From Hirudinaria manillensis (taxonomy: Eukaryota > Annelida > Clitellata > Hirudinida > Hirudinidae): a stretch of DNA of 64,000 bases. Under the pieces are notes generated by a model. That model saw nothing but the letters and a program-made list of their open reading frames with translations, did no database searches and was not told the origin of the DNA. Below are positions 6,434-52,066 of this stretch, piece by piece. Made by a program: the position numbers and the translations under genes. The DNA is taken from the NCBI GenBank assembly GCA_034509925.1, contig CM067536.1, positions 4,520,501 to 4,584,500 on the forward strand. Direction: 5' to 3'. The first letter of the stretch is position 1. Each line of letters begins with the position of its first letter.

Positions 6434-9400
6434 TGGATCTGTCGAAAATTCAAATTAGACCGTTGGAAGAAAAATCGAACTGGTCGAATTGGAAAAGCAG
6501 GATGATCGTCATCTTTAGAGTTTTGTGAGATTACTCTTGAAATTATTGAAGGAAATTTTAAGAAACCCACGCCAGTAGATGATGCTTCAGAAGAACAACG
6601 ATCCGAGTTTGAACGAATGAGCAAAAAGTTTAAGGAAGCTGATTGCAGCGCATTGATTTTAATGTCGAGCAATATGACAGAAGTTTACGAAAAAGTTCGA
6701 AACATGACTGGTGCGTTTGAAATGTGGAATGAATTGAAATCGTTATTTGAAGTTGCAAGAGAAGGCAAAGCATACGACTTGTGCATGAGTTTCTTCAGCT
6801 ACAAAAAGAACGATGCAGACGACATGGCCACTCACGTCACCAAGCTTAAAAACATTTGGAAAGATTTATCAGCAGAACTTTATAAAGATGAAAATAAAGA
6901 TTTGTTGCTGATTTATAAAGTCTTGGAAACTCTCCAAAGTGAATATTTTTCTTTCTCATCAAGCTGGAAACTGTTAAACAAAGAACAGAAATATTGACTC
7001 ATTGACTGTTCATTTGTGTAGTCATGAGAGATCATTGTCTGAGAAGGAAATATTAAACAAAGATCAAACATTTGTTGCAAATCATAGAAAATCATTCCCT
7101 GAAAAGAAAAATGTCTCAGAAAACGGAGAACATTCAAAGAATAGAATCAAGGTTAAATGTTTCTATTGCAACAAAGTTGGCCATTTAAAGAAAGACTGCA
7201 AAATAGAATCGCAGTAGAAAAATTAAAGACAAATGTGAGTTCTTCTGGTTCTACTCTTCTAGCAATTGAGGTCAATGCAGTTGACTGGACTAGCTTTACA
7301 GACTCTTGGTTTGTAGACAATGGAGCTACAAGGCATTTAACGTTTAGAAAAGATTTTCTAAGAGATTATCATGAATTTTCTGAACCACAGAAGCTCCATG
7401 TTGCAGATGGAAGTGTTCTTGATGTCATTGGAAAAGGAAAAGTAACACTTGAAGCTAACATTTATGATAAAGTTGTTCCACTTGAACGATGTATGATGTA
7501 TGGTATGTTCCAAGAATCAAGAAAAACTTATTTTCTGTGCCTTCTGCCCATGAAAGAAGAAAAAATAGTGTCAACAAATGCAGTTTTAAAGTACACTGTT
7601 AAGTTAATTGGATCAAGAGAAGAAGGTAATGGCTTATTCAAATTACTGGCTAAAACTGTTCTTCCACAGCATGAAGAATCAAATGTTGTTGACAGTTCAA
7701 AACTCCAGTTGTATCATGAAAGATTCGCACATCAAAACAAGAAACATGTTAAATTATTTTTGAAGAATAATTTGAAAATTAATGTTGTTGATGATGATGA
7801 TGACGAATTTTGTGAGGGTTGTGTTTTCGGTAAAGCACACAGACTTCAATTTGGAAGAAGGCCAAAAGCAACAAGACCAGGCGAAATTATTCACACGGAT
7901 TTGTGGTCCATTTTGTGAATCTTATTTGAATTTTAAATATTTCGTTCTATTTAAAGACGATTACAGTTCGTTCAGATTTGTTTATTTTTTGAAAAACAAG
8001 TCAGAAGATCCAAGCAAGTTGAGGCAAGTACTTGAACTCAGGACATAGAGTTTCAGAACTCCTCAGTGATAATGGCAGAGAGTTTGATAATGATGAAGTC
8101 AAGGAAATTTTACAAACAAAAGGAATCAGACATCGTTTGGTAATGCCTTACACACCTCAACAGAATGAATGTAGTGAACGAGAGAATAGAATACTGGTTG
8201 AAGCAGCCAGAGCAATGAGATTAGCTCATGAAGAATTGCCTCAGAAACTGTGGGCAGAATTAATAAATACTGCTGGTTATGTTTTGAATAGAACGGGACC
8301 TTCCTCCATAGAGGGAAAATCACTTTATGAAATTTGGTGCAAAAGAAAACCAAGAATTAAGCATTTGAGAATAATTGGTTCAAAAGCCTATATTCACACT
8401 CCTAATCAGCTAAGAACAAAGATTGAAAGTAAAGCTGTTAAAGGAATATTAGTTGGATATGAAGGAGATGATGGATATCGGATACATGTTGCACCGAGCA
8501 AGACAATTAGATCGATAGATGTTGTGTTTGATGAAAGAATGACACCATCTTCCTCTAATACTACCAATGAGAACATGATACCGTCCTCTTCCAATGCTAA
8601 CAATGAAATGATAACGTCTTCATCCAATGCTATCAATTTGAATTTCGTGAAATCACCTGATGAATGTTCAAGTGAAAAAGAAACAATTGAAGAAGTTCAA
8701 ATCAGTCCAAGAAAATTGAGAGATAGAAATCAGATCATGAAGCCAAAACGATTTGATGACTATGTTTGTCTGAATGAAGCATTGAACGTTGAAGAGACAG
8801 AATCTCATGATGATGCAATAAGTTCTGATAGAAGAAAAGAATGGATTGATGCAATGAAAAGTGAGATGAACTCTCTAAGAGAAAACAAAACCTGGGAACT
8901 GGTTGATTTACCTGAAAGAACAAAAATCTTGCCATGTAAGTGGGTCTACAAGACTATGTATGACTCTGAAGGTCAAATAGAATGTCACAAAGCACGATTG
9001 GTTGTTAAAGGTTTTCATGAGAAAAAAGGAAAGGATTACTTTGAAACATTTAGTCCAGTTACTAAAAGTGGTACAATTAGAACTTTATTAAGTGTTGTAG
9101 CTACAGAAGGAATGTCAATGATGCAGTTTGATGTATCCACAGCATTTTTATATGGAGAACTTGATGAAGACATTTACATGCAACAACCAGATTTGATGAT
9201 GGTTCTAAAAAGATATGCAAACTCAAAAGAAGTTTGTATGGACTAAAGCAAGCTCCGAGATGTTGGAACAACGTTTTGGAAATTTTTTGTTGAATCTTGG
9301 TTTTGTGAAAAGTGACGCAGATCCTCGTCTTTTCATTCAAAAGAAAAAGCATAGCAAAATTTTAGTTGCTTTGTACGTCGATGATGGTATCGTTGCAGAA

Positions 9401-17459: not shown

Positions 17460-20078
17460 TTCTCATTTTGTTAAAATCCACCGAATTACTATTTAAGTCC
17501 CATTCTGTCCTTCAGCATGTTCAGCCTCACTCCACCAACTGGTTTTGTCAAGATGTCTGCAATCTGAAATTCTGATGAGACTCTCTTGACACACACATCG
17601 CCTTCTGTGACTTTTTCTCTGACGAAAAAATGTCTTGTCTTGATGTGTTTGGTTCTTTCATGTCTAGTACATATACTTCTGCTACTTGTGTTAGCAATAC
17701 ATAATCATCAAACTTCTTGGGTTTCCGTAAAGCTGATCTATCTCTGAGCTGATGACCTACTGATCGTTTTCTAATTTCATCAGTACTAGCTTGGTTTTCA
17801 TCCTCACTACCTTGACTCTGCTGTTCTTCACCTTCTGAATTGGATTCACTGTGAAGTTCTGTTGTGGACTTTGTTGGCATCTGTAACTCAACAGTTTCTC
17901 CACATTCTTTTGGCTTTTCTTGAAATACAACATCTCTTGAGAAAATCATTTTCCTCTGTTCCTTGAGCCATACTCGATAGCGTTCATCACCATCGTAGCC
18001 TACTAGATAGCCTTTAATCGCTTTCTTATCCATCTTTTGTCGTCGTTGATCAGGTATGTGAACATAACAAGCAGAATAACAATACGTAGATGACTGATCC
18101 TAGGTTTCTTACCTGTCCAAACTTCCCATGGAGTCACACCATCTATTGATGACTTGCCTGTTCGGTTCAGAATGTAGACAGCTGTGTAACACAATTCTGC
18201 CCACATGGCCACTGGAAATTCAGCTTCTGAATTTGAATGCTTCAAAGTGCGAGCCATTTCTACTATTGTGCGGATTTCACGTTCACTACCACCGTTTTGC
18301 TGAGGTGTGTACGGTGCTGTCAGCCTTTGCGTGATTCCATGACTGCGAAGGATATTTCGAACTTCGTCATTGTCGAATTCACCCCCATTGTCACTCAGGA
18401 ATTCTTTCACATTATGGCCTTGACACTTTGCTGTAGCCAGAACCTCCTGAAGTGCTTGCTTGACTTCAGCTTTCTGTCTGATGAATGTGATGAATCTCAT
18501 TTTACTGAAATGATCTTTGAAGACAACAAAATATCGTTTTCTGCTAAACGATTCTCCACTGAAAGGACCACAGACATCTGCTGATAGGAGTTCACCTGGT
18601 TTACTGGTGGCATTCCTTCTTCCAAACTTTAATCTATGAGCCTTTCCATAGATGCAAGGTTCACATATCTCTGTATCAAGCTGAACATTGGTGTTCAATT
18701 CTCTCTTTAGAAGACTTTTTACATGACGTTTGTCTTGGTGTCCAAATCGTTCATGATACAATTGAAGTAGTGAACATTCACTGACTAGGTTTACCTCGGC
18801 TGGAGTTTCAGGACTTATTGCTATCAGTCCCGCTTCATATAAGGTACCATTTAACTGTCTTGTCCCTTGAATAACTATTTTGCCCTGAATTCTTAAGCAA
18901 CACTTTGTGGCAGTTGACTGAAACTTGCTCTGTAAATTTTTGTCTTGAGCAGCTAGAACTAAGAGATTTCTACTCAAACTAGGAACATACCAGACATCTG
19001 ACAAGGTTTGTTCCTGTTGTGGCCAAAATTTTCACTGTACCTTTACCTACAGCAGCAAGAACCTCTTTTCCTGCAGTTTGTACCGTTTGTGGTACTGCAA
19101 ACTTTTCAAAAGTTTCAAAATTGTCTGGACTATTTGTGATGTGTTTCGTTGCTCCATTATCTATGAACCACTTATCATGAGTATTTGCTGTAGATGCCTC
19201 GAAGATTGATGAGCACAACGCTGCATTCAATGTTTCACCATGACTTGTTCTGGATGATGCTGTTGCAGAATTCTTTGCAGGTCTTCCATCGGCGATCCAC
19301 TTGCTGCACTGCTTTACCCAATGACCAGCTCCATGACAGTAATTACAGTTGCCGACTTGCTTCTTCTTAAATGCTCTTGGCTTCTCAGACATGTGTTTCT
19401 GCTTTGAGCTGTTGGCAACTAGAATGTCTTGCTGAGCTGAGCTGTGTGTCACATCTGTCTTTAACTCTCTTTCAAACATGAACACCTGAGTAACTAGTTC
19501 ATCTAACGATTTCTTTTCATCACTTAACATTAGCCAACTTGACTTGAAGATTTGGAAACTGCTTGGCAGTATATGCATCACTTTGCATATGAGCAACATC
19601 TCTGGTAGTTTCCTTTCTCCTGCTTCTTGAAGACCACTATTTAGCTCGTTCCACAGTGTTTTTAGTTTAGCTACTTGGCCTGAGACATCTACGTTTGATA
19701 TCCATCCAAAACTAAAAAACTCACTCAAATTTGGAAAAGTTGGTCTTTGGCTGATGCTTCGAAGTTTCTTTTCAGCTCCTCCCAGACTTCTCTTGCTGAC
19801 TCTCTATCCATGATTTTCTGGTAAGTTTCTTCTGAGACAGCATTGGCTATAACTGATTTGACATAACTGTTAGCCTTTCTGAACTTATCTGAGATTTCTT
19901 TGTGAGCCTTTCTTTGTTCTTCTGTGGGGTTTTCTGCTAGTTCGGGTTTCAGCAACTTGCCATCGATAACGTCGACTGCACCTTCATGATAATCGATATA
20001 GTCTCGAATTCGCCTTTTCCATATCGGCCAATCACTCGTGCACCTCAACGGCTTTATCTTTATTCCCATCGAGTCCAT
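17460..20078 (-). pseudogene. Copia A2 Gag-protease-integrase, deletion derivative
   Basis: Gag starts at 20078 (MDSMGIKIKPLRC) and stops at 19725 (LFQI, stop). The frame shifted by one base continues from 19728, with zinc knuckle CNYCHGAGHWVKQC and protease segment WFIDNGATKHIT. A small deletion after ATTGT (about 19010) shifts the frame again, then pre-integrase and integrase follow (SADVCGPF, FLSDNGGEFDND, NGGSERE). A further shift near 18050 leads to the IN C-terminal tail, which ends at the deletion junction (about 17670). Only the final residues of RNase H remain before the stop. The first Gag break is shared with the copy at 48 kb. Confidence 0.9.
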
Positions 20079-27992: not shown

Positions 27993-29021
27993 TCAGAACA
28001 TTAAGTCAGGATTTCCATAATAGATATATCTCATCACTTGGCCGAAGGTACTATTCTGCCTTTTGATAGATTCAGGGGTATGATGGCTCCAATCAAAGTG
28101 ACCCATAACATGTATTACAAATAAGTCGCTCCAATTGATTATTTCGTTCCATAACAGATGTCTATCAGCCCAATCAGGGGTGGTCAATCTGCGAGGTTCT
28201 ATATGAACAAGATCAGGTCTTTCCAAAGCAATTTTGTAAGCTACACGAGCACAGTTGTAGTCCCAATCTAATGGTCGATAGTTGTCTCTGTAAGATTCAT
28301 ACATCATCCTTAGGAACAGTGAATTCTTGCAAGCAACAATGATCCCTGCAATCAATTTTGGTGGTTTTTCCTTCCCTAAGGAGGCATCATAACGTCTTAA
28401 TGGATTCAAACTATTTACAACGACTACATCATAATCCAAATAAATGCCACCATATTTAATGAGGACTTCCATTTTGGCAATGTCTCCCATATGAAAAGTA
28501 TGAATAATCCGTTGTCCATGTATTTCTCTTGGTTTTTCCTTAAAAACAATTTTCAAAGGAATGGTTCTCCATAATTTTCCCCACCATTTACCAGATGGGA
28601 GAAAATTACAATGCAACATTATGACATCTGGTTTTTGAATTTTGTAAGCACTTAAAACACTTACATAATTGAGGAAAGACATTTCTCTATTTGAGTTATC
28701 TGCAAACCAAATAAAATGGACAATATTTGGAACAACAAAACTATTTCCCAGGCTCGTGTTAACAAGAGAGGGATTTGAGGCTTTCAAGTGGGGCCATCTG
28801 TCCAGTAACTTTCTTGCAGCAGTTGTAGAGTTAGAGTTATCATAGGTCGATATATCTAATCGTACAAAAATATTTTCAAAAAGTAATCCATAGTAATTGA
28901 CCATCACACCCAGCCAAAAACTGAAAAAACAGGCAGAGATTATCCAAAAACTTTTTTTCAGAGCTATATTTCTGTTGTATGACATTTTCATAGTTTCCTC
29001 AAAATGACAGCAGTATAACAA
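27993..29021 (-). CDS. Type II membrane glycosyltransferase, GT32 (Gly_transf_sug) family
   Basis: A 342-residue open frame with a Golgi-type signal anchor: a short cytosolic N-terminus, then a hydrophobic helix at about residues 24-42 (FWIISACFFSFWLGVMV) and a stem. The catalytic region contains VHFIWFADN (about 101-109) and YGGIYLDYDVVVV with the sugar-nucleotide DXD motif as D196-Y-D198. A C-terminal half follows with CARVAYKIALERP and a His-rich IHVMGHFDWSHH. This layout is that of the family containing alpha-1,4-galactosyl- and N-acetylglucosaminyltransferases, which act in the Golgi lumen. The donor and acceptor cannot be read from sequence. Met11 or Met13 are alternative starts. The length and the absence of lesions suggest a functional, intronless coding region, although an upstream exon is possible. 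Confidence 0.85.
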   Translation of the reverse strand: MLYCCHFEETMKMSYNRNIALKKSFWIISACFFSFWLGVMVNYYGLLFENIFVRLDISTYDNSNSTTAARKLLDRWPHLKASNPSLVNTSLGNSFVVPNIVHFIWFADNSNREMSFLNYVSVLSAYKIQKPDVIMLHCNFLPSGKWWGKLWRTIPLKIVFKEKPREIHGQRIIHTFHMGDIAKMEVLIKYGGIYLDYDVVVVNSLNPLRRYDASLGKEKPPKLIAGIIVACKNSLFLRMMYESYRDNYRPLDWDYNCARVAYKIALERPDLVHIEPRRLTTPDWADRHLLWNEIINWSDLFVIHVMGHFDWSHHTPESIKRQNSTFGQVMRYIYYGNPDLMF

Positions 29022-30047
29022 ATACTTTGATTAGATAACCACTATAGAGGTATATGTTTATGTGTGTTCCTGAAAATTTTTAAAAGTGAATAAATCACAG
29101 GAACTACTCGCGTATAATATAGCGAACTTAATCCACCAACTTCTGACGGGCCTCTCTCATATAAGCATGGCCTAAACAATTATAAGCGGTTTACAAGTTA
29201 AAGTAAACAAACCAAACCAATATCGATAGGAAGTACCTGTCATTTGATGATATTTCATCTTATGTAGCTCAAATTATTCATCTTTTATTATTAAGTAACA
29301 TCGCCGATAGAAGTCCATCCGTTTTGAGAAACATTATTTTCGCGACTCTCAAAAGGATATTAAATTGGATGCGTAAGGACGTATTTTGTGTACCACAAAA
29401 TTTCTCGTTCTTAATCCTAGAATCTCTTTTTGAAATTTTGTCGTGAATTTTTGTGAGAATTTTCTTCATTATATTATAACAGAACTTCGACATTCAAGGA
29501 TGAATTACGATTTTAAAAAGCCTCCTTTGCGCGAAAGTTCAAAAGACATGGGGTATATCCCAGCAAACACAGCCCAGGTGGGCCCGCGTGAGCTGAAGGC
29601 AGGTTGCCCGTCTTGCCCGCATCAGCTAAACAATTTTGATGATATTTAGTTTGAAAATTCACGCTAAATAAGTCATCAGTGCAGAAGATACTATTTATCG
29701 TGAATTTTCAGGACTAAACGACTAAATGATGATTAGGCACGAGTCTCTATAAGACCGGATTTTTTGTTTCTTGGATTTATTGGAGATTGTTTGAATGAGA
29801 TTTGTGTCATTACTAATGCTTTGTTTGCTGATCGAACTTCAAGATAGTGAGTTCTTATTATTCACTTTCATACTTTATTGAAAACTTTAAAACTATAATT
29901 GCAACTATAATTAAAGTTTTTAACTGATTGATGATTAGCGTGTTAATTGGTATAATAAGAGTGATGTGCCTCGTTTCCATGTAAACATTTTAAGAAAAAA
30001 TTTAGCCAATTTCTATTAATGATTATTTAAGTGATTTTGTTGAGGAA
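29022..30047. other. No gene seen; short GC-rich repeat-like patch
   Basis: Otherwise AT-rich. At 29559-29640 a GC-rich patch begins CCCAGCAAACACA, a 13-mer also present at 43779, suggesting short transposon ends. Confidence 0.4.
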
Positions 30048-31839: not shown

Positions 31840-31840
31840 C

Positions 31841-32013
31841 CACGATCCACGATGAGTGGAAAAAGGCAGAGGGCGTCTATATTCCAAAGGAGAAAGACTC
31901 CAGGGATCTGAATCAATTCAGACCCATATCACTGCTGAATGTAGAGGGGAAGATATTCTTCTCCATAATGGCATCGAAGCTCACAGTTTGTGATGGCTAA
32001 CCAGTACGTTGAC
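31841..32013 (+). pseudogene. Hero-like reverse transcriptase, N-terminal fragment
   Basis: Encodes HDEWKKAEGVYIPKEKD and NQFRPISLLNVEGKIFF, the first conserved blocks of reverse transcriptase. After ASKLT a one-base shift is needed (near 31990) to continue with MANQYVD. Only the part from these blocks onward exists because of 5' truncation. It connects directly in meaning with 36697. Confidence 0.8.
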
Positions 32014-32043
32014 ATCGCTTCTCGGCCTTTCGGCTAAGATCAA
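32014..32043 (+). ncRNA. U2 snRNA 5' fragment (first 30 nt), attached to Utopia
   Basis: ATCGCTTCTCGGCC, then TTTCGGCTAAGATCAA: the 5' end of U2 spliceosomal RNA beginning exactly at the mature first nucleotide, with one change in the loop relative to the common TTTTGG form. It is followed at once by retrotransposon sequence and preceded by the Hero-like coding sequence, so no U2 promoter or U2 3' part is here. It is a passenger, not a gene. Confidence 0.9.
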
Positions 32044-32102
32044 TTAAAGCTTTCTCTATCGATTCCAAAGATCCCAAGACAACAATCCCTGCTCTGCGCA
32101 CC

Positions 32103-34172
32103 ATGGATACCCCAACCGGTGCCCCCCTTGCACCTGCCAAAATCCGTCGCAAGATGACTTCCCCCAAGGAAGCCCATCAGATTCGGAAGAAGAAGGCCAA
32201 GGCACCGGCTTGCCTCAAGGCAAAAACACTTATCCCCTGCCCACTCAGCTCCCCAATACTTTTCTCCCCCATCAAGCCCAATCCACCAGCCCCCAACCCA
32301 ACAACCACACAGCCCTTGACTTACGCAGCTATTGCCAACTCCCCCCCCAAACCCACACAGACACGGACTCCCCCGACCAATAAATCACCAGTCGCTACTC
32401 CAGGACCCAGCTCCAGGCAGAAACTGACCCCCTCTTGCAGGTCTCCTCCGAAGACCCCAGCCCAAGGCAAGACCCCAAGGACGCCACCAACACCACTCAT
32501 GAAAATCCGGCTCCCCCCCTCAATAACCTCAAGGCCTATCCCAGCAAGCCTACTAAGGGACTGGAACCCCTCTCCCAAAGTACGCCGCTCCCCCGCAGAA
32601 AAAACCCACCCCACCCCAGCCACAAAAGCACCCCCCACCCCCGCCTCACTCACACGCGCCATCCAAACCCATAGAATCCACCCAGCTCCCACCCCCACCG
32701 CTAAAACCCACCTCACCCCCGCCTCACCCGCACGCACCACCCAAACCCAAAGAATACACCCAACCCCCAGCACTGCTCACCCCACCCCCGCAGCTAAAAC
32801 CCACCCCACCCCCGCCCCACTACCACGCACTATCCAAACACATAGGAACCACCCAACCCCCACCCCCACCAGACACCTCACCCCCACCACAAAAGCCCAC
32901 CTCACCCCCGTCTCCCACTCCCGCTCCACCCAAACTCCAAAAGACCACCCATCCCCAACCCCTAGATCACAACTCACCCACACCACACCCACACCCCCCA
33001 CCCCCACCTCACTCACCCGCTCCACTCAAACTCCCAAGGCCTTTTCAGCCCCATCCCCCAAAACTCACTCCACCCTGGAGAATAAACCAACACCCCCACC
33101 CCTCAAAATAAGTAGGATCGATGGCAAGACGGTGGTGGTAATCTCCTACCCCCCCCAGCTCGAGGGTGCCACCTGCCCCCTGTGTTCCAAGAGCAAGACC
33201 CGCATTGGAAGCCTCAGCCTGGCCCTCGCCCACTTCTCCACCCACGGGGCCAGGACATGCTTCAGCTGCGTGGAATGCGACGCCTGGAACCAGGAGAAAA
33301 CCTGGGCAGACTCACATCTCCGTGACTGCCACCCCCACCTCCTGCCAGCCCCCAGCTCTGAAGCTGCCACCTCCCCGCTGGACTCTTCCACCTGGACAGT
33401 AGTCGCCAGCAAACGACACACAGGCAGCCGAGCTCCAACCACCCAGGCGAAAGCGGCCAACAAGAACCCGGTCCCCTCCCCGAAGGCAGCTGAAACCTAC
33501 GTCTTCACCGTTCCGTTCGACAGTTCGGAGAAGCAATGTAGGTTATGCGGGCTGTCCTTTCAGACGCACAACAACACCGTGCGTCACCTAAACCGGACTC
33601 ACAAGGCGCCCCACACCTTCCGCTGCGGAACATGTGACGAGACCTTCGGGCTATTGAAACAAGCCAACGCCCACGTAAAAAGGTCCCACCCAGCGGTCTG
33701 GTCCACGGCGCATCCCCCTGACACATCAACAACCCCGCTCAAAAAGGCAGCCGGCCCCTCCAAGCCGGACCCGCCCGCGACTGAAGCCACGGACGGAGAG
33801 CCCGCCGCACCCACCCAGCCAGACCATACTGAGCTGATTCAGCGGACTCTTGCCTGCGCATCTCAACAGGACCTAGATGCGCTAATGAGCGGACTAACCA
33901 CCACCATCAGAGGGATAATCGAGGCCACGTCGTTCCCCAAGCCAGGTAACCCAGGCAAGGGGGACACGAAGAAGGATGCGACACACACAGAGACGAAAGA
34001 GGCCACCAGGATCCAAAGGCTTTTCCGCTTCAGCATGAAGGAGGCCTTCAGGCAGATCACTGAGGTCCCTAGTCCAAAGTGTGAGATAGCACACGAGGCT
34101 ATTGCAAGCCATTTCGCCCCCCCCCGCCCCCGCCCCCTTCACCCCATCCTTTACCCCATCTCAACCACCTAA
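32103..34172 (+). CDS. Utopia-like protein, N-terminal part: Pro/Thr-rich repeats and four zinc fingers
   Basis: The ATG at 32103 lies in a strong context (ACCATGG). Residues ~60-350 are Pro/Thr/Ser-rich and include about five units of ~27-32 residues (TQTHRIHPAPTP-like). Four C2H2-type fingers follow: CPLC…HFSTH from residue ~358, a CFSC/CVEC…HLRDCH finger from ~386, CRLCGLSF…HLNRTH from ~479, and CGTCDETF…HVKRSH from ~508. Such fingers bind target DNA in R2/NeSL-type elements. A basic region before reverse transcriptase follows (RIQRLFRFSMKEAFRQI). The frame runs past a C-rich tract (about 34117-34139) and ends at 34172 without a reverse transcriptase. That domain lies in the next frame, so the break is most likely a C-run indel. 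Confidence 0.85.
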   Translation: MDTPTGAPLAPAKIRRKMTSPKEAHQIRKKKAKAPACLKAKTLIPCPLSSPILFSPIKPNPPAPNPTTTQPLTYAAIANSPPKPTQTRTPPTNKSPVATPGPSSRQKLTPSCRSPPKTPAQGKTPRTPPTPLMKIRLPPSITSRPIPASLLRDWNPSPKVRRSPAEKTHPTPATKAPPTPASLTRAIQTHRIHPAPTPTAKTHLTPASPARTTQTQRIHPTPSTAHPTPAAKTHPTPAPLPRTIQTHRNHPTPTPTRHLTPTTKAHLTPVSHSRSTQTPKDHPSPTPRSQLTHTTPTPPTPTSLTRSTQTPKAFSAPSPKTHSTLENKPTPPPLKISRIDGKTVVVISYPPQLEGATCPLCSKSKTRIGSLSLALAHFSTHGARTCFSCVECDAWNQEKTWADSHLRDCHPHLLPAPSSEAATSPLDSSTWTVVASKRHTGSRAPTTQAKAANKNPVPSPKAAETYVFTVPFDSSEKQCRLCGLSFQTHNNTVRHLNRTHKAPHTFRCGTCDETFGLLKQANAHVKRSHPAVWSTAHPPDTSTTPLKKAAGPSKPDPPATEATDGEPAAPTQPDHTELIQRTLACASQQDLDALMSGLTTTIRGIIEATSFPKPGNPGKGDTKKDATHTETKEATRIQRLFRFSMKEAFRQITEVPSPKCEIAHEAIASHFAPPRPRPLHPILYPISTT
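32640..33105 (+). repeat. In-frame C-rich minisatellite in Utopia ORF
   Basis: About five degenerate units of 80-95 bp, all in frame, each encoding a (S/A)RTxQTxxxHPxPTP-like block. Strongly C-rich on the plus strand. Confidence 0.7.
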
Positions 34173-36564
34173 CAGTAGCATGTCCCATGACATCCTCGCC
34201 CAGGACTTCACTCCATCCGAAGTTCTGGCGAAGCTGAAAAAAATGGGCAACACCAGCCCCGGGCCAGACAAAATCCGATATAAACACTGGCGGAAGTTTG
34301 ACCCCGAGGCCCTGGTCCTCGCTACACTTTTCGGCAAATGCAGAGAGCTGCTGCTGGTTCCCTCCTCCTGGAGAACCTCCAGAACAGTTCTTCTGCATAA
34401 GAAGGGCGACCAGTCCGATCCCGGAAACTGGCGCCCTATTGCCCTAATAAACACGGTGGCCAAGCTGTTCACAGCCTGCCTAGCCACCCGTCTTACATCC
34501 CTCTTCACATCTGAGGGCATACTAGCCCCTCAGCAGAAGGGCTTCCTGCCTACCGAAGGTTGCCTGGAGCACAACTTCGTCCTCCAGTCCATCATCGAAG
34601 ATGCGAAGCGCAAGGGCAAAGACCTCGCTATTGCCTGGCTCGACTTGCGCAACGCCTTCGGTAGCGTTCCTTTCAACACCATCTTCGAATCACTCTCCCA
34701 GCATGGATTCAACCTTAGAACCCAATCCATGATCTGGGAACTCTACAGGGACTCCTCCACTGCCTTCACCACAGCGGAGGGTCCCTCTCCACAATTCCCT
34801 GTGTCCAGTGGAGTAAAACAGGGCTGCCCCCTCTCCCCCCTGATCTTCAACATAGCGATCAACTCGTTGATCAAGGGAGTCGCAGCCCTGTCCCAATCCC
34901 ACGGATACCCCCTTTTTGACCTCCACCACTCCATCTTAGCGTATGCAGATGACCTGGTCCTCACTTCAAACAACCGGGATCATCTGCATCTTATGCTCCT
35001 TCAGGTGGGCGACTCAGCCACCACCTTAGGTCTTTCCTTTAACCCGGCCAAATGCGCTACTTTCCACTTAAGCAAGGCCGTGGTCTTAGATACCACTTTC
35101 ACCATACAAGGTGGTGCCCCCCCAGCCCTAAAGGAGGATGAATACTACTCCTACCTGGGCCGTCCAACGGGGCACCAACCCTTCCTTTCCATAAAACAAA
35201 CCCTCGAGGGCATGACCTCAGACATTGAGAAACTCGAGGGTTCGCTTCTCGCCCCGTGGCAGAAAATCCAAGCCACGAACACCTTCTTGCTGCCCAGACT
35301 TAACTACATCCTTAAGTCTGGGTACGTATACAAAAAGGACCTTAAGGCCTTCGACGAGAGGCTCACAGCAATGGCCAAGAAATGGACTTGGCTCCCTAAA
35401 AGAGGCAGCTGTGAACCTCTCTTCATCTCCCAGAATGAGGGAGGACTCGGCCTTCTCCCTACGAGGCAAATGGCTGACATAGCCACTGTGGTGCAAGCCC
35501 ACAAATTCCTTAACAATAAAGACTCAGCCATCAGGGAGTTGGCCCGAAACTCCCTCACCACCGTCACTTCCTCCCGCGCGAGGCGACCCGCAAACAACAC
35601 GGAGGTCGCCTCCTTCCTTAACGGTTCAATGGAAGGAGACCTCGGTCTGCCTTCCAACGACCATTCCACATTCTTTGCTCGGGTTCGAGTAGCCACAGTC
35701 GAGCTCCGAAAGAGGGTGCTGTTCTCCTGGACACCAGGAGTCAACACACCCTTCTTACAAATGGGCGGACACCCCGTCCCATTCTTCCAAGCTGAGGCCC
35801 GGCTGAAAAGAGCAGTCCGCAAGGACTTCCTGGTTAAGCTCCATGGCAAAAAGAGCCAGGGAGGAGTATCCAGGTGTGCCTCCCAGTCGGCCCTCAGCAA
35901 CCACTTCATACTCAAGGGAACCTACTGCTCCTTTGCCAATTGGAGATTCATCCACAGGGCCAGAATTAACGTTCTGGACACCAAAAGCCAGCCCTGGGTC
36001 AAGGACGATCGCAGCTGCCGCAAGTGCGGCGCAGATAATGAGACCCTGGGCCATATACTCTGTGGATGCAAGCCCAATCTGGCATTGGCCACTATCCGTC
36101 ACAACGCCATCGTTGACGAGATAGTGAAGCTGATTCCGGCAACCAACCTACGCCTGAATCAGCAGGTTCCCTTGAGCCTTTCGCCCCTCCGACCCGATAT
36201 AGTCTCCTTTGACCTCTCCAGCAAACAGGCGGTCATCATTGATGTCAAATGTCCATTCGACTACAACGCCGACGCGCTGGAGAGGGGGAGGCTTGAAAAA
36301 TTCCATAAATACCAGGGAATAGCTCAAGAGCTAAGATCCCTGGGCTTCAGCGTTCATGTAGGTGCAGTCGTCGTAGGAGCTCTCGGCTCCTTCGACGATG
36401 AAAACCTAACTTCTTTCAAAGCTCTAGGCATCCGCGGACTGCGGGCCAAAGAGCTTTCAAAAAGGGTGGTGTGTAGCAACATTACACACTCACGGCTAAT
36501 TTACAACAGCCATACACACCACCAGCCCAGGCCCGCAGGGCCCGGAAAAGCCCAAGAGAACTAA
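34102..36564 (+). CDS. Utopia-like reverse transcriptase and restriction-like endonuclease
   Basis: Open frame in the frame next to 32103-34172; the first ~30 codons overlap it and the nominal ATG is probably not a real start. Reverse-transcriptase blocks in order: NTSPGPDKIRY, NWRPIALINTVAKLF, QQKGFLPTEGCLEH, AIAWLDLRNAFGSVP, GVKQGCPLSPLIFN, and the active-site YADD at residues 281-284. The C-terminus has the CCHC knuckle CRKCGADNETLGHILC (from 639) and the endonuclease motif R697-P-D699 … D714-V-K716. This knuckle plus RPD/D-x-K is the restriction-like endonuclease of R2/R4/NeSL elements, which nicks target DNA and primes reverse transcription. All catalytic residues are present. Apart from the frame break near 34130 the protein looks intact. 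Confidence 0.92.
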   Translation: MQAISPPPAPAPFTPSFTPSQPPNSSMSHDILAQDFTPSEVLAKLKKMGNTSPGPDKIRYKHWRKFDPEALVLATLFGKCRELLLVPSSWRTSRTVLLHKKGDQSDPGNWRPIALINTVAKLFTACLATRLTSLFTSEGILAPQQKGFLPTEGCLEHNFVLQSIIEDAKRKGKDLAIAWLDLRNAFGSVPFNTIFESLSQHGFNLRTQSMIWELYRDSSTAFTTAEGPSPQFPVSSGVKQGCPLSPLIFNIAINSLIKGVAALSQSHGYPLFDLHHSILAYADDLVLTSNNRDHLHLMLLQVGDSATTLGLSFNPAKCATFHLSKAVVLDTTFTIQGGAPPALKEDEYYSYLGRPTGHQPFLSIKQTLEGMTSDIEKLEGSLLAPWQKIQATNTFLLPRLNYILKSGYVYKKDLKAFDERLTAMAKKWTWLPKRGSCEPLFISQNEGGLGLLPTRQMADIATVVQAHKFLNNKDSAIRELARNSLTTVTSSRARRPANNTEVASFLNGSMEGDLGLPSNDHSTFFARVRVATVELRKRVLFSWTPGVNTPFLQMGGHPVPFFQAEARLKRAVRKDFLVKLHGKKSQGGVSRCASQSALSNHFILKGTYCSFANWRFIHRARINVLDTKSQPWVKDDRSCRKCGADNETLGHILCGCKPNLALATIRHNAIVDEIVKLIPATNLRLNQQVPLSLSPLRPDIVSFDLSSKQAVIIDVKCPFDYNADALERGRLEKFHKYQGIAQELRSLGFSVHVGAVVVGALGSFDDENLTSFKALGIRGLRAKELSKRVVCSNITHSRLIYNSHTHHQPRPAGPGKAQEN

Positions 36565-36696
36565 TCAGTCTTAAAAACCTGCTAAATTTTCTTCTTTTTA
36601 TTTACAGACAAACAAAGTCGCAAGCAGTACGACGCAACCTACATTTACAATGATCCTTCAAGTTTTACACTTTATTTGAAAATAAAAACGATTTAA

Positions 36697-38828
36697 TCTG
36701 TCCAAAAGGGAGGAGTTCCAGGTGTACCTGGTTGCATCGAACACACCTCCATGATATGGGAGGCGATCCAGAGGGCCAGGAGGGGCCGGTTGAGTCTGTA
36801 CGTAGTGTGGCTGGACCTAGCAAACGCATATGGGTCGGTGCCGCATCAACTCTTGTGGAAGACGTTGGAAGCACACCATGTGCCTCAGCCCGTTATCCGT
36901 ATCCTCCAGGAATATTTTAACGGGTTCATGATGCGTTTCTCCACCCAAGCGTACACGACGAAATGGGTTCCTCTGCAGGTCGGGATAGCCATGGGGTGTG
37001 CGATCTCTCCGACCCTGTTCGTACTGGCGATGCAGATCCTACTGAAGGCAGTTGGGTCCGACATTCCAGAGGCGCACATTGGTAAGGGTGTGTACATGCC
37101 TCCAATAAAGGCATTCATGGACGACACCACCCTGATTATGAATAGGAAGCGAGTCGTTCAGGAAACCCTGGACAAGCTGGACGACTTGCTAGGATGGTGT
37201 CGTATGGCCTTCAAACCTGCGAAGTCCAGGAGTCTCTCTTTGGTTAGAGGGAAAATTTGCAGGGACGCGTTCTTCGAGGTGGCGGGACAACGAATCCCCA
37301 CAGTATCCGAGGAGCCTGTGAAGAGCCTAGGAAGGATGTTTGACGACTCGCTCACCGACAAGAGCATGAAGAACGCCATAGTCACGCAAACCAGTAAGGG
37401 GCTGCAAGCGATCGACGCGGCGCCGCTCCAGGGTCGTTTCAAAGTGTGGCTTTTGCAGTTTGTGCTCCTGCCCAGACTCCTTTGGCCTTTGACCATCTAT
37501 GAGATTGGTCTATCGGCGGTCGAGGGGTTAGAGAGGAAAATCAATCGGCACACCAGGACATGGCTGGGTTTACCTCCAGCATTGTCGTCGGTTGCCCTCT
37601 ACAGCAGGAGCGCGAGCCTTAGACTGCCACTTAGGTCCATCGTGGAGGAGTACAAACTCTCCAAAATCCGAACGCAGTGGATGCTCAATAACTCCGCGGA
37701 CAACAGGATCCGTGAAGTTAATCCACTGCTCAGATCTGGAAAGAAGTTCCGAGCGCAGAAAGAGATCGACGAGTCAGTAAATGTACTGATGTTCGAAGAA
37801 GTGAGAGGTCCTATCCAGACAGACCGTCACGCAGTGGGATGGAACCACTTCCAAAAATGGTCCCAGGCCAGCTCATCGACCATGGGTGCGATGATTGGCC
37901 AGGAGAGGAGGCGGAACAAGATCGAGTCACAAAGGCCGTACAGCTAGCACAACAGGGTAAGTGGACAACTTGGGAGGATGTGATCCAACGGTCCCTTACC
38001 TGGAGCGACTTATGGAAGTTGTCTCCGCTCCGGCTGGCCTTTGCGGTAAGATCGATTTATGATCAGTTGCCTTCCAAGGACAATTTAAGGAGGTGGGGGT
38101 TAGTAGAAGACGGCAAATGTGGACTCTGCGACGGAGCCGAGACACTGCACCATGTGCTCAGCAACTGCACATACGCCCTTGCCCATGGTCGGTATACATG
38201 GCGACACAATCAGGTCCTTCGAGAAGTGTGTGAGGCCACCAAAGCAGCAGTAACCAAAGCAAACTCGCGCGCAATCTCCAAGCAGCGGAAGATTTACTTC
38301 CTGCGCGAGGGCCACGCACACCTCTGCAGAAAGCGATGTAAAACGCCAAGAAAGGACATCCTTGCAGAGGCAAACGATTGGACAGTCGCAGCCGACTTAG
38401 AAGGAATGAGGCACTATCCCCAGGTGCTGATTGAGAGTGGCAAGAGGCCCGATATGGTGTTGATGTCACCGTCGTCAGATGCCATCATTTTGGTGGAGTT
38501 GACGGTCCCATGGGAGGACAGAATGCAATATAGCAATGCGCTGAAAGCGGAAAAGTATGCAGATCTGGCGGTGGACCTGGAAGCGAAAGGGTTCAGAGTT
38601 GACCTCTTCCCAATAGAAGTTGGCGCAAGGGGCGTAGTCGGCAAGTCGACTTACGCTTTCCTCACGAAAATAGGCCTATCTAGCCGAGAAAGAACGAAGA
38701 CGATGACAAAGATGTCGGAAGCGGCGGAGGCAGCTTCGTTCTGGATCTGGCAAATGAGAGGCAAGGAAACATCTTCGGATGCCACAGCGAAAGGACCGGA
38801 GAAAGCCGCCGATCTCCGGTCAGAATAA
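36697..38828 (+). pseudogene. Hero-like reverse transcriptase and endonuclease, main part
   Basis: Resumes with SVQKGGVPGVPGCIEHTSMI. Blocks: VVWLDLANAYGSVPHQLL (about 36805), GIAMGCAISPTLFV, and the active-site AFMDDTTL (Phe-Met-Asp-Asp, about 37111-37134), then FKPAKSRSLSL and EEPVKSLGR. A one-base shift near 37905-37930 moves the reading into the frame of 37839-38828. That frame carries the knuckle CGLCDGAETLHHVLSNC (about 38118) and RPDMVLMSPSSDAIILVEL (about 38447), the PD…E endonuclease. With the 5' truncation, the Utopia insertion and two shifts it is dead. Confidence 0.85.
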
Positions 38829-48098: not shown

Positions 48099-48452
48099 AT
48101 GGACTCGATGGGAATAAAGATAAAGCCGTTGAGGTGCACGAGTGATTGGCCGATATGGAAAAGGCGAATTCGAGACTATATCGATTATCATGAAGGTGCA
48201 AGTGACGTTATCGATGGCAAGTTGCTGAAACCCGAACTAGCAGAAAACCCCACAGAAGAACAAAGAAAGGCTCACAAAGAAATCTCAGATAAGTTCAGAA
48301 AGGCTAACAGTTATGTCAAATCAGTTATAGCCAATGCTGTCTCAGAAGAAACTTACCAGAAAATCATGGATAGAGAGTCAGCAAGAGAAGTCTGGGAGGA
48401 GCTGAAAAGAAACTTCGAAGCATCAGCCAAAGACCAACTTTTCCAAATTTGA
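48099..48452 (+). CDS. Copia A1 Gag, N-terminal part
   Basis: 117 codons from MDSMGIKIKPLRC, containing DWPIWKRRIRDYID and REVWEELKRNFEASAKDQ, the typical copia Gag start (Trp-x-x-Trp followed by a helical domain). It ends at TGA at 48450-48452 after LFQI. Comparison with copia B, where Gag reads on without a break here, shows the reading should continue in the frame of 48449. The same stop occurs in the minus-strand copy (19725). Gag forms the virus-like particle. Confidence 0.88.
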   Translation: MDSMGIKIKPLRCTSDWPIWKRRIRDYIDYHEGASDVIDGKLLKPELAENPTEEQRKAHKEISDKFRKANSYVKSVIANAVSEETYQKIMDRESAREVWEELKRNFEASAKDQLFQI

Positions 48453-51400
48453 GTGAGTTTTTTAGTTTTGGATGGATATCAAACGTAGATGTCTCAGGCC
48501 AAGTAGCTAAACTAAAAACACTGTGGAACGAGCTAAATAGTGGTCTTCAAGAAGCAGTAGAAAGGAAACTACCAGAGATGTTGCTCATATGCAAAGTGAT
48601 GCATATATTGCCAAGCAGTTTTCAAATCTTCAAGTCAAGTTGGCTAATGTTAAGTGATGAAAAGAAATCGTTAGATGAACTAGTTACTCAGCTGTTCATG
48701 TTTGAAAGAGAGTTAAAGACAGATGTGACACACAGCTCAGCTCAGCAAGACATTCTAGTTGCCAACAGCTCAAAGCAGAAACACATGTCTGAGAAGCCAA
48801 GAGCATTTAAGAAGAAGCAAGTCGGCAACTGTAATTACTGTCATGGAGCTGGTCATTGGGTAAAGCAGTGCAGCAAGTGGATCGCCGATGGAAGACCTGC
48901 AAAGAATTCTGCAACAGCATCATCCAGAACAAGTCATGGTGAAACATTGAATGCAGCGTCGTGCTCATCAATCTTCGAGGCATCTACAGCAAATACTCAT
49001 GATAAGTGGTTCATAGATAATGGAGCAACGAAACACATCACAAATAGTCCAGACAATTTTGAAACTTTTGAAAAGTTTGCAGTACCACAAACGGTACAAA
49101 CTGCAGCAAAAGAGGTTCTTGCTGCTGTAGGTAAAGGTACAGTGAAAAGTTTGGCCACAACAGGAAATAAGCAACAGGAACTAACCTTGTCAGATGTCTG
49201 GTATGTTCCTAGTTTGGGTAGAAATCTCTTCTCAGTTCTAGCTGCTCAAGACAAAAATTTACAGAGCAAGTTTCAGTCAACTGCTACAAAGTGTTGCTTA
49301 AGAATTCAGGGCAAAATAGCTATTCAAGGGACAAGACAGTTAAATGGTACCTTATACGAAGCGGGACTGATAGCAATAAGTCCTGAAACTCCAGCCGAGG
49401 TAAACCTAGTCAGTGGATGTTCACTACTTCAACTGTATCATGAACGATTTGGACACCAAGACAAACGTCATGTAAAAAATCTTCTAAAGAGAGAATTGAA
49501 CATCAGTGTTCAGCTTGATACAGAGATATGTGAACCTTGCATCTATGGAAAGGCTCATAGATTAAAGTTTGGAAGAAGGAATGCCACCAGTAAACCAGGT
49601 GAACTCCTATCAGCAGACGTCTGTGGTCCTTTCAGTGGAGAATCGTTTAGCAGAAAACGATATTTTGTTGTCTTCAAAGATCATTTCAGTAAAATGAGAT
49701 TCATCACATTCATCAGACAGAAAGCTGAAGTCAAGCAAGCACTTCAGGAGGTTCTGGCTACAGCAAAGTGTCAAGGCCATAATGTGAAAGAATTTCTGAG
49801 TGACAATGGGGGTGAATTCGACAATGACGAAGTTCGAAATATCCTTCGCAGTCATGGAATCACGCAAAGACTGACAGCACCGTACACACCTCAGCAAAAC
49901 GATGGTAGTGAACGTGAAATCCGCACAATAGTAGAAATGGCTCGCACTTTGAAGCATTCAAATTCAGAAGCTGAATTTCCAGTGGCCATGTGGGCAGAAT
50001 TGTGTTACACAGCTGTCTACATTCTGAACCGAACAGGCAAGTCATCAATAGATGGTGTGACTCCATGGGAAGTTTGGACAGGTAAGAAACCTAGGATCAG
50101 TCATCTACGTATTGTTGGTTCTGCTTGTTATGTTCACATACCTGATCAACGACGACAAAAGATGGATAAGAAAGCGATTAAAGGCTATCTAGTAGGCTAC
50201 GATGGTGATGAACGCTATCGAGTATGGCTCAAGGAACAGAGGAAAATGATTTTCTCAAGAGATGTTGTATTTCAAGAAAAGCCAAAAGAATGTGGAGAAA
50301 CTGTTGAGTTACAGATACCAACAAAGTCCACAACAGAACTTCACAGTGAATCCAACTCAGAAGGTGAAGATCAGCAGAGTCAAGGTAGTGAGGATGAAAA
50401 CCAAGTTAGTACTGATGAAATTAGAAAACAATCAGTAGGTCATCAGCTCAGAGAGAGATCAGCTTTACAGAAACCCAAGAAGTTTGATGATTATGTATTG
50501 CTAACACAAGTAGCAGAAGCATATGTACTAGACATAAAAGAACCAGAATCTTATGATGATGCAATAAGTTCTGATAGAAGAAAAGAATGGATTGATGCAA
50601 TGAAAAATGAGATGAACTCTCTAAGAGAAAACAAAACCTGGGAACTGGTTGATTTACCTGAAAGAACAAAAATCTTGCCATGTAAGTGGGTCTACAAGAC
50701 TAAGTGTGACTCTGAAGGTCAAATAGAACGTCACAAAGCAAGATTGGTTGTTAAAGGTTTTTATCAGAAAAAAGGAAAGGATTATTTTGAAACATTTAGT
50801 CCAGTTGCTAAAAGTGGTACAATTAGAACTTTACTAAGTGTTGTAGCTGCAGAAGGAATGTCAATGATGCAGTTTGATGTATCCACAGCATTTTTATATG
50901 GAGAACTTGATGAAGACATTTACATGCAACAACCAGAGGGATTTGATGATGGTTCTAAAAAGGTATGCAAACTCAAGAGAAGTTTGTATGGACTAAAGCA
51001 AGCTCCGAGATGTTGGAACAAACGTTTTGGAAATTTTTTGTTGAATCTTGGTTTTGTGAAGAGTGATGCAGATCCTTGTCTTTTCATTCAAAAGAAAAAG
51101 CATAGCAAAATCTTAGTTGCTTCGTATGTCGACGATAGAATCGTTGCAGCCACGTCAGAATCAGATCTTAAAGATTTCAAGCAGAAATTAGAGAAAGAAT
51201 TCAAGATTGTTGCTAAACCAGCTACATTCTTTCTTTTAATTGAAATCAACAAACAATCTGATGGCTCAATAAAAATCACTCAGAGAAACTTTACTCAAAA
51301 GATTCTAGAGAAATTTGGAATGGACAAATGTCGCCCATGTCCAACACCCATTATTAAATCTGAGAAGGCAGATGAAGTCCGTGATGATCAAAACGAGATC

Positions 51401-52066
51401 AAATTTCCATACAGATCAGCGGTAGGCGCATTAATGTACCTAATGACAAGTACAAGACCCGACATAGCGTATGCAGTTAGTATTGTTTCTAGAAACCTAG
51501 AAAACCCAACTAGAAATGATGTTGTAAAGGTTAAGAGGATATTTAGGTATCTTCAGGGTACCAGAGATATTGGTATTACTTACAGCAGTTCTAGAACGAA
51601 CGATACTTTGATATGCTACAGTGATGCTGATCATGGAGGAGACACTACCACGGGAAGATCTACATCAGGTGTTGTTTGTATTTATTCTGGAGGTGCTATC
51701 AGTTGGCTTAGTCAAAGACAAGCGTCAGTAGCCATATCAACGACTGAAGCAGAAGTAGTTGCTGCAAGTGAAGCTACTAGAGAAGCTATTTGGTTGAAAA
51801 GATTGTTAGAGGACATCACTGGATATTCTAACAAACCAGAAATTTACGTTGATAACGAAGCTGCAATTAAACTAGCTGAGAATCCAGAATATCACAAAAG
51901 AACCAAACACATCAAGACAAGACATTTTTTCGTCAGAGAAAAAGTCACAGAAGGCGATGTGTGTGTCAAAAGAGTCTCATCAGAATTTCAGATTGCAGAC
52001 ATCTTGACAAAACCAGTTGGTGGAGTGAGGCTGAACATGCTGAAGGACAGAATGGGACTTAAATAG
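48449..52066 (+). CDS. Copia A1 Gag C-terminus and Pol (protease, integrase, reverse transcriptase, RNase H)
   Basis: 1205 codons open. The first codon is TTG, so translation probably depends on the preceding Gag frame. Domains: zinc knuckle CNYCHGAGHWVKQC (from residue 128); protease WFIDNGATKHIT with D190 (Asn where Ser is usual); pre-integrase with a His/Cys zinc region ending EPCIYGKAH; integrase with ADVCGPF, FLSDNGGEFDND and NDGSERE; reverse transcriptase with KWVYKTK, FDVSTAFLYGELDEDI, SLYGLKQAPRCW and YVDD at 893-896; RNase H with CYSDADHGGD, STTEAEVVAA, IYVDNEAAI and KTRHFF. It ends in LTKPVGGVRLN. All catalytic residues are visible. It could act in trans if the Gag break is bypassed. 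Confidence 0.93.
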   Translation: MSEFFSFGWISNVDVSGQVAKLKTLWNELNSGLQEAVERKLPEMLLICKVMHILPSSFQIFKSSWLMLSDEKKSLDELVTQLFMFERELKTDVTHSSAQQDILVANSSKQKHMSEKPRAFKKKQVGNCNYCHGAGHWVKQCSKWIADGRPAKNSATASSRTSHGETLNAASCSSIFEASTANTHDKWFIDNGATKHITNSPDNFETFEKFAVPQTVQTAAKEVLAAVGKGTVKSLATTGNKQQELTLSDVWYVPSLGRNLFSVLAAQDKNLQSKFQSTATKCCLRIQGKIAIQGTRQLNGTLYEAGLIAISPETPAEVNLVSGCSLLQLYHERFGHQDKRHVKNLLKRELNISVQLDTEICEPCIYGKAHRLKFGRRNATSKPGELLSADVCGPFSGESFSRKRYFVVFKDHFSKMRFITFIRQKAEVKQALQEVLATAKCQGHNVKEFLSDNGGEFDNDEVRNILRSHGITQRLTAPYTPQQNDGSEREIRTIVEMARTLKHSNSEAEFPVAMWAELCYTAVYILNRTGKSSIDGVTPWEVWTGKKPRISHLRIVGSACYVHIPDQRRQKMDKKAIKGYLVGYDGDERYRVWLKEQRKMIFSRDVVFQEKPKECGETVELQIPTKSTTELHSESNSEGEDQQSQGSEDENQVSTDEIRKQSVGHQLRERSALQKPKKFDDYVLLTQVAEAYVLDIKEPESYDDAISSDRRKEWIDAMKNEMNSLRENKTWELVDLPERTKILPCKWVYKTKCDSEGQIERHKARLVVKGFYQKKGKDYFETFSPVAKSGTIRTLLSVVAAEGMSMMQFDVSTAFLYGELDEDIYMQQPEGFDDGSKKVCKLKRSLYGLKQAPRCWNKRFGNFLLNLGFVKSDADPCLFIQKKKHSKILVASYVDDRIVAATSESDLKDFKQKLEKEFKIVAKPATFFLLIEINKQSDGSIKITQRNFTQKILEKFGMDKCRPCPTPIIKSEKADEVRDDQNEIKFPYRSAVGALMYLMTSTRPDIAYAVSIVSRNLENPTRNDVVKVKRIFRYLQGTRDIGITYSSSRTNDTLICYSDADHGGDTTTGRSTSGVVCIYSGGAISWLSQRQASVAISTTEAEVVAASEATREAIWLKRLLEDITGYSNKPEIYVDNEAAIKLAENPEYHKRTKHIKTRHFFVREKVTEGDVCVKRVSSEFQIADILTKPVGGVRLNMLKDRMGLK

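Follow-up and report, generated by a model that had tools for sequence, protein, structure and literature searches.

A Utopia-type LINE with the 5' end of U2 snRNA at a non-U2 site in the leech Hirudinaria manillensis, probably templated from RNA begun at a U2 promoter

The window analyzed here is a 64,000 bp stretch (C11:4520501–4584500) of the Hirudinaria manillensis genome; the genome searched comprises 148.4 Mb in 23 contigs. The window has a LINE, apparently of the RLE type (positions 32044–36695), that is fused 3' of a U2 snRNA head (positions 32014–32043) and is located within the coding sequence of another LINE, "Hero". The best explanation of the whole, which the sequences make quite probable, is that this element is a Utopia-type LINE templated from an RNA of the U2 promoter, with the U2 leader copied along. 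DNA records of one genome point to a Utopia RNA that starts at the start site of the target gene itself. This addresses two open questions: by what means LINEs that are target-specific but have no evident promoter come to be expressed, and why they persist in a low-copy target such as U2.

The U2 head on the forward strand of the window matches nt 1–30 of the U2 genes elsewhere in the genome without a difference (30/30), and the match ends at +1, as the initial annotation had described. The letters upstream of it end in GTTGAC, compared with GGAATTT and AATGGC in the flanks of U2 genes on C2 and C4. A chance origin of the match is excluded. The Rfam U2 match at positions 32014–32077 is 29.8 bits, which is under the gathering score. 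A textbook-like U2 30-mer containing TTTTGGC has 0 matches in this genome, where U2 reads TTTCGGC; 146 U2 heads were counted here, 100 of them listed. The empty Hero site reads GTTGACAT|ATCTGTCC, and the AT at positions 32014–32015 can be assigned to U2 or to the target. Since AT is common to the U2 start and the empty site, the U2 part begins at +1, +2 or +3.

The other boundary of the head is near TTAA (positions 32044–32047), which may be U2 as well. TTAA follows GATCAA both in the window and in a variant U2 array on C13, which reads GATCAATTAAG; such an agreement has a chance of 1 in 256. By these letters the U2-derived part may be 34 nt rather than 30. The C13 variant U2 genes read GTCGCTTCTCGGCCTTATGGCTAAGATCAATTAAGTAGTTTCTG and have 143 bits to Rfam U2. 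Despite the TTAA, nt 1–30 in the window carry C2/C4-type letters. If the parent copy was in a C13-like variant U2 gene, the true junction would be +34, as in the second Utopia lineage described below. A U2 gene that combines C2/C4-type nt 1–30 with TTAA was not found in this genome with a non-canonical pattern of the U2 1–30 head. This pattern gave two forward places (the window and C13:69069) and 135 reverse places, and all 98 of the reverse places that were listed are in the C13 array; it is blind to one-base deletions and missed the C12 copy described below.

Downstream of the head, direct reading of the sequence gives a 59 nt 5' UTR (positions 32044–32102) and an N-terminal frame with its first ATG at 32103 (positions 32103–34172, within an open frame at 32013–34172). 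Parts of the N-terminal frame match L061, an element inside a U2 gene, and a Pfam search of this frame gave no match. A second frame (positions 34090–36564) encodes a reverse transcriptase and a putative C-terminal endonuclease, with 53% identity over 821 aa to L061. Its PF00078 match (E=6.2e-32) is the reverse transcriptase of a non-LTR retrotransposon, as in Utopia. By eye, the translation has what we take to be a PD..D/ExK restriction-like endonuclease motif and a C-terminal CCHC. The two frames are in different reading frames, whereas L061 has a single 1768 aa stop-to-stop frame, so the window element is probably frameshifted near positions 34090–34172. The 3' UTR (positions 36565–36695) has the terminus AATAAAAACGATTTA, the same ending as that of L061 in U2 (AATAAAACGATTCAA). 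All these features are on the forward strand. An AATAAA is close to the 3' end in the window element, L061 and the second-lineage elements, which would fit a polymerase II transcript. No second copy of the 5' 691 bp of the window element was found in the genome, and no U2-resident copy of its own family was found among the own-genome copies examined.

A maximum-likelihood reverse transcriptase tree of 19 rows, from which reference Utopia, NeSL and R2 sequences are absent, places the window element with C2:13820444 (95% identical, 657 columns), and the two are sister to L061 (100/100). The second-lineage element on C4 pairs with an off-target copy on C12. The five leech rows are together at 94/94 and join one further protein at 100/100. 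The branch of the Hero row is so long (9.7) that its placement is meaningless and it is unfit as an outgroup.

The name Hero is a label of the initial annotation; what is confirmed in the two frames of this LINE is only a PF00078 reverse transcriptase and a zf-RVT match. The left part (positions 31840–32013, forward strand) is an interrupted coding sequence and is 96.6% identical to L088, a further Hero copy, over 177 bp. The right part (positions 36696–38828, forward strand) begins with ATCTGTCC, is 98–100% identical to other copies at query positions 5–401, and has PF00078 and PF13966 in its frames. The right-side pattern of the site is found at 58 places with up to three mismatches, 41 of them without mismatch. 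Thirty-nine of these 41 are empty and read TACGTTGACAT|ATCTGTCC; the two that are filled are the window and C12:4395647. When the window flanks are joined, with AT shared, they are 98.4% identical to an empty copy over 185 bp, end to end, and the differences consist of one base and a 2 bp gap, all left of the junction. These data bear out the earlier statement that another LINE (there called Hero-like), and not a U2 gene, flanks the element and resumes after it. There is neither target duplication nor target loss. Target duplication is also absent in the arthropod Utopia families described in the available text of PMC4640811.

Comparison of the U2 target (AGTGTAGT|ATCTGTTC) with the Hero target (GTTGACAT|ATCTGTCC) gives a common cut, T|ATCTGT, and the cut in Hero matches that in U2 (nt 38|39). 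The filled site at C12:4395647 has a 5'-truncated copy of the other Utopia lineage, with the left junction GTTGACA|GAAACAG and the right junction AACGTAAT|ATCTGTCC. Since this lineage differs from that of the window, a single U2-like site in another LINE has been hit by two Utopia lineages. The initial annotation had spoken of an escape from the target. The site is indeed not U2, but it is not random, as T|ATCTGT is common to U2 and the second lineage is at the same site. Among the dispersed copies of the window family whose 3' ends were read, those with ATCT at the start of the flank are L069, L071, L072, L073, L075 and L078, and the exceptions are L074 and L077. With up to two mismatches the 3'-end pattern of this family gives mostly noise (699+741 places vs. 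563+570 for a reversed control); 6 of 16 exact matches run on into ATCT, two of them with the same flank. Hero sites also occur at a spacing of 3972 bp, six at C4:10159802–10179695 and four at C2:4050496–4062444, which indicates that the Hero LINE is present in tandem arrays as well.

Utopia copies are also found inside U2 genes. The U2 array on C2 has a unit of ~1204 bp, with 46 full-length copies scored and at least 81 heads, and the units on C4 and C13 are ~473 bp and ~452 bp. L061, on C2, is joined after U2 +37 and is followed by U2 ATCTGTTC. U2 genes on C2 (two decayed copies) and C4 (three copies found with the 5' end) contain the second lineage, whose junction follows AGTG at +34. Short 5'-truncated inserts in C2 U2 genes are joined after +36. 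Downstream of the resident copies, U2 resumes at about nt 39. The expectation that resident copies join U2 after position 30 is not borne out by those found; their junctions are +34, +36 and +37, in other lineages or insertion events. The region upstream of a U2 gene with an insert is the same as that of an intact neighbor for L061 (1000/1000) and for one C4 copy (400/400), and for the two C2 second-lineage copies the identities are 1000/1000 and 98.4% over 995.

The second lineage is an independent record, with a like leader both on and off target. An old off-target copy with stops, and with a 3' flank other than U2, is found at C12:4315.9–4320.7 kb. This copy is complete at its 5' end, where it begins TCGCTTCTCGGCCTTTCGCTAAGATCAAAGTG, which is U2 +2 to +34 minus one G, and then continues into the element. 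An indel-tolerant count over fetched loci finds the missing G in eight heads, all of them bound to the second lineage (six from three C4 loci and one each from C2 and C12), and in none of the 234 heads that continue as intact U2; the loci overlap, with genes counted more than once. Confinement of the missing G to element-bound heads indicates that the source of the C12 head was an element copy within a U2 gene rather than U2 snRNA. The two C2 copies differ: in one the U2 head is normal, and in the other, which lacks the G, there is an additional G close by; judging from these letters, inheritance of the head in the second lineage is not uniform. The C12 head matches at 32/32, compared with 87% over the whole 126 bp match and 91.9% over 2394 bp of the reverse transcriptase region relative to the C4 copy. 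That the head is more conserved than the neighboring element sequence is at most suggested by these values.

The three C4 copies display a 57 nt repeat, in which a U2 head with element nt 1–24 is followed by another U2 head that continues into the element. The first base of the second unit is precisely U2 +1, and this junction cannot be slid. Reverse transcriptases of the R2 type are capable of template jumping. The simplest reading of the repeat would be a cDNA extended as far as the 5' end of the RNA, at U2 +1, with a subsequent jump to a similar short RNA; an alternative is a DNA tandem duplication that starts at +1 by coincidence. The three copies probably represent one event multiplied by array expansion. 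As the intact C4 heads examined are without the deletion, the sequences of the C4 copies also fit an exchange in which the U2 head of the target was replaced by that of the element; gene conversion is an alternative.

Among the copies read at non-U2 sites, those of the window and of C12 are the two that extend into the 5' UTR, and both have a U2 head. The upstream sides of eight other dispersed or truncated copies are truncated or unrecognizable. L068 and L070 end within the element, L088 (the second lineage in Hero) is truncated, and the upstream sides of L096–L100 have no U2 match at E≤1. These last five are likely truncated, in families whose 5' UTRs are unavailable for comparison. The dispersed-copy search is based on 55 scored candidates out of 1412.

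The following series of events would account for the window element. A parent copy would have been present in a U2 snRNA gene, with RNA made from the promoter of that gene. Transcription would have started at U2 +1 or within a base or two of it and continued through 30–34 nt of U2 into the element. The element protein would then nick the U2-like T|ATCTGT inside another LINE and prime reverse transcription there. The RNA would be copied to its 5' end, and the end of the cDNA joined to the target through the shared AT as a microhomology. The product expected is a copy with a start codon and a U2 leader, without target duplication or loss. When a U2 gene is the target, pairing between it and the head would be possible, in the manner suggested for R2 RNAs with retained 28S sequence (PMC3774820), and the leader may aid normal insertion in this way. 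The earlier proposal of an RNA that runs from the U2 start through U2 into Utopia gains support from the independent second-lineage copies; for the window element itself it is an inference. Points that count against it are that neither a U2-resident copy of the same family nor a second copy of the 5' 691 bp was found, that the window junction is at +30, compared with +34 to +37 in the resident copies, that inheritance of the head is not uniform in the C2 copies, and that the start is ambiguous by 2 nt.

A more extended proposal, to which we give even chances, is that the ~33 nt U2 leader is heritable and owned by the element. The cDNA would end at the U2 start; on target, the leader would pair with and replace target nt 1–38 and so place each insertion seamlessly behind an intact U2 promoter, and off-target copies, with the leader but without the promoter, would be dead ends. 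If this is true, promoter dependence would hold the target specificity of Utopia in place. Silence of the off-target copies is a prediction of the U2-start model.

Other explanations of the U2 head differ in where the U2 sequence came from. A template switch, in which copying of the element RNA proceeded into its 5' part and the reverse transcriptase then moved to a U2 snRNA molecule, as in U6/L1 chimeras, should give the same end product for the window copy alone, and L1 chimeras with U1–U6 are known (available text of PMC13174262). A jump of this type could fall anywhere in ~190 nt, yet just nt 1–30 (or 34) are present and the join adjoins the Utopia insertion point. Moreover, the second-lineage head has a deletion seen only in element-bound heads, which argues against U2 snRNA as its source. 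An origin of the head from mature snRNA, as in U6/L1, is not what is found in the second lineage, and the window copy by itself is compatible with either source; overall we regard a template switch as improbable. In the second lineage, copies on C2, C4 and C12 share one deleted head, which suggests that it was inherited. This is what would be expected if the head were a fixed part of the 5' UTR, captured once and without present link to U2 transcription. In the U2-resident copies, however, an unchanged U2 upstream region directly precedes the head, with the boundary exactly at +1, and the lineages join at different U2 positions (+30/34, +34 and +37); we regard a fixed part as still less likely than a template switch. 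The initial annotation had considered a U2 fragment in every Utopia 5' UTR, as an internal sequence, to be contrary to its proposal. The second-lineage head is apparently inherited, yet it is at the very 5' end, from the U2 start, and is not internal.

The least credible explanation is that the Hero copy held an old U2 pseudogene fragment that was hit by Utopia, or that the junction is an assembly join; nothing was found in favor of it. The 39 empty sites among 41 exact ones are without a U2 insert, the flanks rejoin cleanly, no U2 nt 31–192 follow the element, and on C12 this site is occupied by a second Utopia. Capture of a U2 gene at the DNA level was rejected on the basis of the U2-gene flanks, the second-lineage copies, the empty sites and the rejoined flanks. 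A Utopia-type LINE copied from an RNA of the U2 promoter is the explanation that we prefer.

Utopia belongs to the NeSL clade (Kojima and Jurka 2015, PMC4640811). The Utopia elements in the available text of that paper are RLE-type LINEs, as the leech elements appear to be, and share with them U2 resuming at ~nt 39, variable 5' junctions and some copies off target at U2-like letters. Annelids are absent from its Table 1. Off-target copies with a U2 head from +1 or +2, described here, and a role for the U2 promoter, here proposed, were not found in the available text of PMC4640811; the word promoter is absent from its main text. Eleven families are given there with U2 on the 5' side, and 10 of these have it on both, which leaves one family in which something comparable may be present. 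No title or abstract opening on a Utopia RNA started at U2 was found in the part of the literature covered.

The closest analogue of the proposed Utopia expression would be R2, which is co-transcribed with the 28S gene. According to the available text of PMC3774820, the 5' end of R2 RNA keeps 28S sequence and is set by an HDV-like ribozyme, and upstream-target tandem duplications are present at some 5' junctions. Co-transcription and target sequence at the RNA 5' end, both putative in Utopia, and such duplications are points of likeness. A difference is that the Utopia end here coincides with the start of the host gene, and no ribozyme was found: searches for ribozyme families gave no match in positions 31950–32450 of the window up to E=10 or in L089 up to E=0.1. 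What we rate as new, from sequence comparison, is a putative co-transcription with the target gene as in R2 in which the host start site, and not a ribozyme, would set the end of the RNA. U6/L1 and other L1 5' chimeras likewise have host RNA sequence in sense at the 5' end of a LINE. As far as the available text of PMC13174262 describes, these arise by template switching, RNA ligation or transduction and involve unrelated RNAs, whereas the leader here is that of the target gene itself, in two lineages.

The U2 arrays have several further properties. The variant array on C13 extends from position 433 to ~62 kb (L092 and L093; 98 listed heads of 135 counted). Its U2 genes have G at +1, a TTATGGC loop and GATCAATTAAGTAGTTTCTG, which is a changed stretch around the branch-site pairing region. 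U2 genes of the C4 array have GTAGTT in place of GTAGTA. Both arrays are near contig ends and have spacers with TTAGGG-like repeats, and on this basis they look subtelomeric. At C13:69069 (L066), a C2/C4-type U2 head (GATCAAATGTGTAG) is present after a C13-type upstream flank and is followed by a 5'-truncated Utopia; either the array is mixed or the head was replaced at insertion. Three places of the C2 array (L062, L067) have an identical 125 bp insert of a truncated Utopia, each time at one and the same U2 base (AGTGTA|ACCGCAG), probably a single insertion spread by array turnover. A U2 gene at C2:12511123 (L062) has a short internal duplication-like insert after ~nt 54.

Elsewhere in the window, Copia-like LTR retrotransposon frames were seen by eye at positions 7157–9246, 18003–19803 (reverse strand) and 48374–52066. 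The last of these is one open frame of 1230 aa and is close in sequence to the inverted pieces at 18003–19803. A glycosyltransferase-like gene is located at positions 27993–29030 on the reverse strand. It has relatives with PF04488, and its best named match is from Helobdella robusta (71%), with another record at 94%.
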